From Blastococcus sp. HT6-4 (GTDB lineage Bacteria; Actinomycetota; Actinomycetes; Mycobacteriales; Geodermatophilaceae): 64,000 bases of DNA. The stretch lies in assembly GCF_039679125.1 (NCBI RefSeq), contig NZ_CP155551.1:3968001-4032000 (forward strand), written 5' to 3'. Position numbers and translations under genes: made by a program. Below are positions 34,588 through 36,479 of this stretch, piece by piece (position 1 is the first letter of the stretch; the number at the start of each line of letters is the position of its first letter). The notes under the pieces are model-generated. The model saw only the letters and a list, made by a program, of their open reading frames with translations. It was not told where the DNA came from and did not search any database.

Positions 34588-35652
34588 GTGACCAGCGACC
34601 GCCTGTCCACCTTCGGCCACCGCCCCGCCCCGCTGCCGCTCGGACGCCGGGTGCTGGGACGTGCGCTGGCCCGGCCGAGCCTGCCCGCCGTCGTCGGGCT
34701 CGTGCTCGTCGTCGTCTTCTTCGCCCTGCAGGTGCCGGACCTGCTGACCCCGTTCGGGCTGGCCACGGTCCTCGACACCGCCGCCCTGCTGGGGATCGGC
34801 GGCGTCGCCGTCGCGCTGCTGCTGGTGGCCGGCCAGTTCGACCTGTCGGTCGGGGCGCTCGCGGTCTCCAGCTCGCTCCTCACCGCGCTGCTGATCGGCT
34901 ACGGGGGCTGGGGCACCTGGCCGGCGCTGCTCGTCTCGCTGCTCGCCGCACTGGCGGTCGGGGTGGTCAACGGCGTGCTGGTCGTCAACACCGGCCTGCC
35001 GAGCTTCCTCGTCACGCTGGCGACGTTCCTGATCCTCCAGGGCACCTCGCAGGCCGGCGCGCAGGCGGTCGCGGGGTCCACCCGGGTCAGCGGCCTGGAC
35101 CGGACGCCCGGCTGGTCGTCGGCGAGCGCCATGTTCGACGCCACCGTGGAGGTTGGCAACGGCCGGTTCAGCGTCGCCATCCTGTGGTGGCTGGGCCTGA
35201 CGGCGCTGGCCACCTGGGCCCTGTGGCGCACCAAGTTCGGCAACGCGGTCTTCGCCAGCGGCGGCGCCCGCCAGGCCGCGCGGGAGCTCGGCGTGCCGGT
35301 CCGGCGGACCACCGTGGCCCTCTTCTGCCTCACCGCGACGGCGGGCTGGCTGCTGGGCACCTTCACGCTCGTGCGGCTGGGCAGCGTGCAGGCGGGCGGC
35401 ACCGTGGGGATCCTCAGCGGTATCGACTTCATCGTGATCGCGGTCATCGGCGGCTGCCTGCTCACCGGCGGCTACGGCTCCGCGATCGGTGCCGCCGTCG
35501 GCGCCCTGCTCTACGCGGTCGCGCGGCAGGGCATCACGCTCGCCGACTGGGACACCCGCTGGTTCTCGGCGCTGCTGGGAGTGCTCCTCCTGGTGGCCCT
35601 GCTCGCCAACGGCGAGGTGCATCGCCGGCTCAAGGCGAGGCCCCGGTCGTGA
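34588..35652 (+). CDS. CUT2-type ABC permease, paralogue of the one at 8934
   Basis: A 354-residue permease with the same landmarks as its paralogue: [45 protein letters not shown] and [23 protein letters not shown]. All transmembrane regions look intact. The GTG at 34588 is chosen because it gives an N-terminus that aligns with the paralogue. There is no binding-protein gene beside it, unlike the first system. Its stop overlaps the next start (GTGA). Confidence 0.88.
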
Positions 35653-36479
35653 GCACCGCCCTGCCAGCCGACGGCGAGACCGGCCCCTGCCCCGTCGTGG
35701 AGCTGCGCGACCTCACGGTGCGCCACGGCAACGTGCCGGCGCTCAGCCGCGTGCACGCGACACTGCTGCCCGGCCAGATCACCTGTGTGCTGGGGGAGAA
35801 CGGCTCGGGCAAGTCGACGCTGGTGTCGGTCCTGTCCGGGCTGCGCCGGCACGACGAGGGCGAGCTCCGGGTGGACGGTTCCCCGGTGCGGTTCCGCTCC
35901 GCCCGCCAGGCCCGCGAAGCCGGCATCGCCACGGTGTGGGAGGACCTCGCCGTCGCCCCGCTGCTGTCGATCTGGCGGAACTTCTTCCTCGGCGCGGAGC
36001 CCACTCGAGGGATCTGGCCGCTGCGCCGGCTCGACGTGACCGGAGCCCGCGAGACGACGGTGCGGGCGATGGCCCGGGTCGGGATCACCGGCCTGGACCC
36101 GGACCAGCCCGCCAGCAGGCTGCGCGCCGGGGAGCGGCAGAGCCTCGCCGTCGCCCGGGCCCTGCACTTCGGTGCCCGCATGCTGGTCATCGACGAGCCG
36201 GTGACTCCCATGACGGTCGCCCGGCAGACGCTGTTCGGGCAGGCGATCCTCGCCGCCCGGAGCCAGGGGCTCGCGGTCGTCGTCGTCACCAACAACCCGC
36301 GGTACGCGCACCTCATCGGCGACCGGTTCCTGCTGCTGGCGCACGGCCAGGTGGCGGGGAACCTCACGCGCGAGGACGTCGACGCCGACGTGCTCACCGC
36401 GCTGATGGCCGGTGGTGAGCAGCTCACCACCCTGACCGACGCGCTGACCTCGCTGCACCCGGAGCTCGGCGACCGCTGA
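35649..36479 (+). CDS. Degenerate ABC ATPase paralogue
   Basis: A 276-residue protein clearly related to the ATPase at 8131 (shared [20 protein letters not shown] and LMAGG segments). Walker A (GENGSGKST) and Walker B (MLVIDEP) are intact. Four other functional sites differ: the Q-loop reads ATVWEDLAV (Gln to Glu), the signature reads LRAGERQ instead of LSGGERQ, the D-loop reads TPM instead of SAL, and the switch histidine is Asn (VTNN for ITHN). It should bind ATP but hydrolyse it poorly, if at all. It is coupled to the permease by a GTGA overlap, which suggests the pair is still expressed. Confidence 0.88.

Follow-up and report, generated by a model that had tools for sequence, protein, structure and literature searches.

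The window analysed here is a 64,000-nucleotide stretch (3968001–4032000) of the 4.30-Mb, single-contig genome of Blastococcus sp. HT6-4. A CUT2-type permease gene in it is followed by an ABC ATPase gene (Table 1), an open frame with a GTG start that encodes 276 amino acids. This GTG shares the tetranucleotide GTGA with the stop of the permease, an overlap that the preliminary description of this DNA had reported and that we find at the sequence level; the same 4-nt overlap of permease and ATPase occurs in 57 of the 69 orthologous loci extracted below. The ATPase belongs to PF00005 (81.3 bits, cut-off 25) and is 52% identical to the ATPase of a second, canonical operon in the same window. Alignment of the two proteins confirms the earlier statement that the Walker motifs are kept and four other motifs altered: Walker A and Walker B (VIDEP) are unchanged, while the Q-loop VYQDL of the paralogue has become VWEDL, the signature LSGGERQ has become LRAGERQ, the D-loop TSALG has become VTPMT, and the switch THNP has become TNNP. 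Below, d type denotes the altered ATPase and its orthologues, c type denotes the canonical paralogue and its orthologues, and residues are numbered as in the d-type protein of the window.

Table 1 Features of the d locus and of the canonical operon, in window coordinates
Feature	Position	Strand	Remarks
Hypothetical gene	33830..34444	+	Start uncertain; upstream of the permease, syntenic
Conserved 12-bp element, TCGTGGACACTG	34509..34520	+	Starts 79 nt before the permease start
Shine-Dalgarno-like GAGGAGG	34538..34544	+	5 nt before CTG
Candidate 13-codon mini-ORF from CTG	34550..34591	+	Its stop and the permease start share GTGA
CUT2-type permease of the d pair	34588..35652	+	PF02653, 133.2 bits, cut-off 26.8
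d-type ABC ATPase	35649..36479	+	cis ATP site kept; changes in Q-loop, signature, D-loop and switch
Canonical (c-type) ATPase	8131..8937	-	Comparison
Permease of the canonical operon	8934..9995	-	Start uncertain; comparison
Binding protein of the canonical operon	9989..10972	-	PF13407

The d type is a single clade of Geodermatophilaceae ATPases

A d orthologue is present in all 23 Blastococcus genomes, with the other 22 at 81–88% identity to the window protein, and in 85 of 112 Geodermatophilaceae genomes altogether (E ≤ 1e-98). Twelve family genomes gave only a c-range match (E 1e-86 to 1e-70), and the eight sequences extracted from these are all of the c type; the remaining 15 gave neither a d nor a c match at E ≤ 1e-70. 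Sequences of the d type were extracted from 69 of the 85 genomes, namely the 23 of the genus and 46 of the 62 others. The pair is patchily distributed in genus g3 (G039–G064), where 14 of 26 genomes have it, which points to repeated loss there.

Outside the family, a profile built from 29 d sequences, against which d members score at least 455 bits, detected no d type among 397 genomes of the order (best match in another family, 352 bits) or among 394 genomes of the class (349 bits). Among the matches listed in a GTDB scan, seven named loci at 67–87% identity all belong to Geodermatophilaceae, and among the best 5000 matches listed from a plasmid collection all were below 60% identity. A tree of 121 ATPases unites all 69 d sequences in one clade with a support of 100/100 and a long stem; the exact sister group of this clade is unsure because long branches meet there, as the program warned.

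Two groups of ATPase residues differ in conservation

We compared the 69 d sequences with 52 canonical relatives (the 21 c-type loci and 31 further ones, 18 of which are from other families). Lys55, Ser56, Asp182 and the catalytic Glu183 are kept in 69/69 d sequences, and the A-loop residue is Tyr, Phe or His in 68 of them, so that by its sequence the d ATPase retains the cis residues able to hold ATP (Walker A Lys and Ser, Walker B Asp and Glu, A-loop). The residues that would make the trans contacts are replaced throughout the clade: Ser159 of the signature by Gln (49), Arg (16), Ala (2), Leu (1) or Glu (1), Gly160 by Ala (54), Pro (12), Gln (2) or Val (1), and Gly189 of the D-loop by Thr (66) or Ser (3), with Pro at D-loop position 187 in 66 sequences. 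The canonical signature LSGG[EQ] occurs in none of the 69 d sequences as opposed to 52/52 relatives, all of which keep Lys55, Asp182 and Glu183 together with the signature Ser and Gly and the D-loop Gly. The signature and the D-loop are altered in every extracted orthologue, which is more than chance.

The other two changes are less regular. Residue 98 of the Q-loop is Gln in 53 d sequences, Glu in 9, Pro in 4 and Asn in 3 (13 Gln, 7 Glu and 3 Pro within the 23 Blastococcus genomes), and residue 215 of the switch is Asn in 35, His in 25, Ser in 6 and Ala in 3. A check had been proposed of whether the same four substitutions are conserved in Geodermatophilaceae: the signature and the D-loop are altered in 69/69, and at the Q-loop and the switch Gln persists in 53/69 and His in 25/69; since these two positions vary among orthologues, we rejected the four changes as one fixed package. 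On a quick tree calculated without the motif columns, the kept or lost state changed at least six times for Gln98 and at least five times for His215 but not once for positions 159 and 160. The simplest order of events suggested by this pattern is that the trans-interface residues were lost first and permanently, and that His and Gln then went piecemeal, as would be expected from a relaxed need for hydrolysis with the key residues of the cis pocket fixed. The switch substitution taken alone proves little: according to one report (PMC7756269), Asn or Gln mutants of the H-loop in nucleotide-binding site 2 of ABCC1 keep wild-type-like transport.

The strongest objection to a fully dead ATPase is the invariance of its catalytic Glu, a residue whose retention would be odd if hydrolysis were gone. 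The invariant Glu also speaks for an active importer, in which Gln or Arg would replace the signature Ser contact (one or the other stands at this position in 65/69 d sequences) and the permease would be served by an unlinked binding protein from a different family. The invariant Walker Lys and Asp and the switch His kept in 25 sequences agree with such an importer, but the alteration of both signature and D-loop in 69/69 and the repeated changes at Gln98 and His215 do not, and together with two observations on the permease and on binding proteins given below they make it unlikely.

Selection on the d pair

Estimates of dN/dS (NG86) were made on the same seven Blastococcus genomes for every gene, giving 21 pairs per gene. 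The d ATPase is under purifying selection, with a median dN/dS of 0.194 compared with 0.139 for the c ATPase, which answers a proposed check for low dN/dS among orthologues; the medians for the d and c permeases are 0.323 and 0.158. Internal stops are absent from 68 of the 69 d frames, and in the remaining one (L160) the stop at residue 276 is the expected C-terminal end.

Sequence entropies describe where this constraint lies; since more families are represented among the c and outgroup sequences than among the d sequences, these comparisons are rough and the result for residues 99–125 is suggestive. The whole ATPase core has an entropy of 0.69 bits in the d type and 0.78 bits in the c and outgroup sequences, and residues 99–125, which we assign as facing the permease, have 0.40 versus 0.61 bits. 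The D-loop and the switch are more variable in the d type than in its relatives, as are the Walker B stretch (0.44 bits, against 0.02 in the relatives) and the A-loop with Walker A (0.23 versus 0.10 bits), although the key residues of this cis region are fixed.

Slow decay of a redundant transporter would be in keeping with the 27 of 112 family genomes that lack an intact d type, with the patchiness in g3, and with one frameshifted copy in the draft genome G058 (locus L332), where the permease is readable and the d ATPase frame is broken mid-gene through either decay or draft error. As a general state, however, simple decay is not borne out, and we consider it highly improbable: dN/dS is 0.19, none of the 69 extracted frames has a premature stop, the Walker Lys, Asp and Glu are never altered, and the leader element and mini-ORF frame described below are conserved. 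The earlier view of a selected change as opposed to random decay is upheld by a single clade in which the trans residues are lost and the cis residues kept in 69/69 members at a dN/dS of about 0.2.

The permease and the missing binding protein

A permease orthologue adjoins the d ATPase in all 69 d loci. The landmarks of the permease had been described as kept; the protein is indeed an intact PF02653 member, but the Glu of its GxGxE motif is lost, as it is in 49 of the 69 d permeases overall (kept in 20), as opposed to its presence in 52/52 canonical relatives, and this loss speaks against the active importer considered above. Large parts of the d permease are conserved, and the stretch TRFGN..FA.GG...AARELGVP, our presumed coupling region, is no less conserved in the d type than in the relatives; no PDB sequence matched the protein at E ≤ 0.001. 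We infer that the contact between ATPase and permease is kept while features from the time of the binding protein are probably fading. The faster evolution of the permease than of the ATPase (0.32 versus 0.19) makes it harder to argue that the transported substrate is conserved.

The surroundings of the pair are constant. In all 46 d loci from outside Blastococcus one flank holds purA and the upstream hypothetical gene; the other flank holds DUF3151 and fba in 45 loci and is cut by a contig end in the remaining one. Fifteen of the 27 family genomes without an intact d type were inspected and have the same flanking genes, with no d pair between them in 14 and, in G058, the pair with the frame-broken ATPase. 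The hypothetical gene is present in all 15 of these loci, so that we rejected it as a component and regard it as probably outside the system; the stretch 33785–34441 has no Pfam or NCBIfam match. By eye, extra MFS-like and amidohydrolase-like ORFs are seen in some genera between the hypothetical gene and the permease at L131, L152, L168 and L165.

The earlier statement that the pair lacks a binding protein (SBP) extends to its orthologues: no SBP was found at the 46 loci within flanks of up to 6 kb in a search with one SBP query (E ≤ 1e-10), which would miss other SBP families. An SBP is present in 21/21 c loci and in 20/20 further canonical loci with wide flanks, the latter (18 from other families) all being SBP-permease-ATPase operons. 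A sensor or regulator that signals the presence of ATP or of a ligand and does not transport could be read from this missing SBP, from the stronger constraint on the ATPase than on the permease and from the kept cis ATP residues. We regard it as rather improbable, as much of the permease is conserved and none of the constant neighbours (purA, the hypothetical gene, DUF3151, fba) is evidently a signalling gene.

The canonical operon as a possible partner

A system borrowing the ATPase and binding protein of the 8131–10972 operon had been suggested. A second, c-range match is carried by 58 of the 85 d genomes, and in the same-contig cases inspected this close canonical paralogue lies about 25–43 kb from the d ATPase. 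We searched 26 of the 27 d genomes without a close paralogue with a c profile, leaving out G096, which is 67% complete; a diverged c type was found in 11 of them and no c type in 15 (next match after the d ATPase at most 210 bits). In two of these 15, G006 (99% complete, four contigs) and G015 (98%, about 300 contigs), a search for PF13407 binding proteins at E ≤ 0.001 gave no match either, which adds to the evidence against an active importer; the other 13 do have such a protein. The PF02653 genes of G006 and G015 are the d permease and one adjacent pair that is LIV-like by arrangement, and neither genome has a second ATPase match at E ≤ 1e-45, a cut-off that some sugar ATPases elsewhere barely pass. 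As the c-lacking genomes, including these two, retain the d pair, it persists without the proposed partner, and we rejected the 8131–10972 operon as a required one.

The same genomes bear on a mixed complex of a d chain with a canonical ATPase of the 8131 type, which would have one good and one degenerate site in the manner of heterodimeric ABC proteins. The co-occurrence in 58/85 genomes and the trans-side loss, which fits one half of a heterodimer, agree with this arrangement. It is nevertheless very unlikely, considering (i) the 15 of 26 searched genomes without a canonical orthologue, (ii) G006 and G015, where the d ATPase is the only match at that cut-off and the d permease the only PF02653 gene beyond the LIV-like pair, and (iii) the loss of the switch His on the same chain in 44/69 d sequences.

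The nearest NCBIfam model to the binding protein of the canonical operon is a rhizopine SBP (226 bits, below the cut-off of 420), a likeness from which the canonical system may take up an inositol-like compound.

A proposed ATP-gated derivative of CUT2 importers

The reading that we favour, with a probability of about one half, derives the d pair from a CUT2 sugar importer that kept its permease and ATPase but lost its binding protein; in this family-specific, SBP-free descendant a poorly or non-hydrolysing, ATP-binding homodimer would use ATP occupancy as a gate. In such a complex each d chain would bind ATP in cis through the A-loop, Walker A, Walker B and the catalytic Glu but would lack the trans contacts by which the ATP sandwich closes and fires, namely those of the D-loop, the signature Ser and the first signature Gly. 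If homodimerisation is assumed, every d-d site would be without the signature and D-loop residues; both composite sites would then be degenerate and hydrolysis weak or absent. ATP occupancy would gate passive flux through the permease instead of fuelling a pump. In favour of this reading are the occurrence of the d type in 85/112 family genomes as one clade, the contrast between lost trans and kept cis residues, the dN/dS of the ATPase, the low entropy of residues 99–125, the 4-nt gene overlap, the lack of a linked SBP, the persistence of the pair in G006 and G015 and the loss of the GxGxE Glu; against it are the invariant catalytic Glu, the transport kept by ABCC1 H-loop mutants, the switch His kept in 25/69, the greater variability of the cis region, the faster evolution of the permease and the 27 of 112 genomes without an intact d type. 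Assembly as a homodimer, ATP binding, little or no hydrolysis and ATP-gated passive flux are all inferred from sequence comparison, by which the pair looks like a retired fuel-driven pump kept for another job.

CUT2 importers with a single-domain ATPase, including the 8131–10972 operon, are presumably FrcA-like. With those considered here (this operon, the 20 other c loci and the 31 further loci) the d pair shares a PF00005 ATPase and a PF02653 permease; it differs in having no linked SBP, in its altered signature, D-loop and often H-loop, and in the mostly lost Glu of GxGxE. The fused CUT2 ATPases RbsA and NupO are of the same ATPase kind and likewise have a non-canonical signature, and one of their two sites is degenerate, the second Walker A being without its Lys (PMC11466899); the cis Walker residues of the d type, in contrast, are intact, and both of its sites would be degenerate in a homodimer. 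TAP, MRP1, CFTR and Pdr5 resemble the d type in an altered signature and sometimes an altered H-loop, but retain a single canonical site and in many cases have another residue in place of the Walker B Glu (PMC7756269), whereas in the d type this Glu is invariant and a partner chain seems unneeded.

Most work on degenerate ATP sites concerns heterodimers or fused proteins, in which one site still functions. The d pair is small, seemingly homomeric, SBP-free, apparently degenerate at both sites and conserved across a family, and because some natural genomes gave no CUT2 partner for it, it offers a clean system for the role of ATP binding alone. An ATP-gated pore, if true, would be a prokaryotic counterpart, independently reached, of those ABC proteins for which ATP is a switch and not a fuel. 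A search of open-access titles and abstracts on degenerate or inactive ABC importers and on ABC systems of the family, a coverage that mostly excludes subscription literature, returned no d-like pair.

A conserved leader upstream of the permease

The 12-bp element (Table 1) is a possible promoter or operator element. Its best match in the 69 d loci is exact in 48 and has one mismatch in 7, two in 9 and three in 5, compared with 10 stretches with at most two mismatches and 102 with three among 1380 shuffled control stretches; seven of its last eight positions are conserved in 68–69 of the 69 loci. The exact 12-mer occurs once in the 4.3-Mb genome, where one chance match for 12 bases is unsurprising. 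No sigma-70-type promoter or terminator was found at 33700–36900, and a known riboswitch was rejected in the absence of an Rfam match at E ≤ 1.

The Shine-Dalgarno-like sequence with its CTG recurs in 65 of 69 d loci, the CTG lying 35–45 nt from the start of the 12-bp element. This pattern is not unique to the leader, as GAGGAGGNNNNNCTG occurs five times in the window against 0.34 expected. In 60 of the 65 loci the CTG opens a mini-ORF of 8–20 codons that ends as NTGA at the permease start; the other five frames are in frame with the permease, and none is in the third frame. Mapped on the tree, at least 19 changes in mini-ORF length preserved the frame. The spacing from element to CTG underwent at least 28 changes modulo 3, and there were at least four switches of frame, each between the stop-overlap and permease-in-frame states. 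A frame kept despite such changes in length and spacing speaks for translation from the CTG, and the candidate mini-ORF is probably a mini-cistron translationally coupled to the permease. The number of stops in it (none seen, 3.6 expected) is uninformative, since the permease frame also gave none, and it has no third-position excess or codon periodicity, of which the permease-start control likewise has little (pairs more than 35% different were dropped). A 26-codon leader ORF with a GTG start was rejected, as its frame is not kept.

A comparable arrangement is the AUGA-coupled uORF of uPPE2-PPE2 in Mycobacterium tuberculosis, a short uORF whose stop overlaps the main start; the report on it calls CUG starts rare in mycobacteria (PMC11260477), and the candidate mini-ORF of the d leader differs in its CTG start and its 8–20 codons. 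It is possible, if doubtful, that a one-time conversion in an ancestor of most Geodermatophilaceae turned an SBP-dependent pump into a self-contained, homomeric ATP-gated pore that has no binding protein, lacks the firing residues at both ATP sites and is expressed from its own leader with a CTG mini-cistron.

Downstream of the d ATPase, a small ORF on the minus strand (36506–36649) was noticed by eye, encoding a putative membrane peptide that ends in ...GPGGVSIFT.
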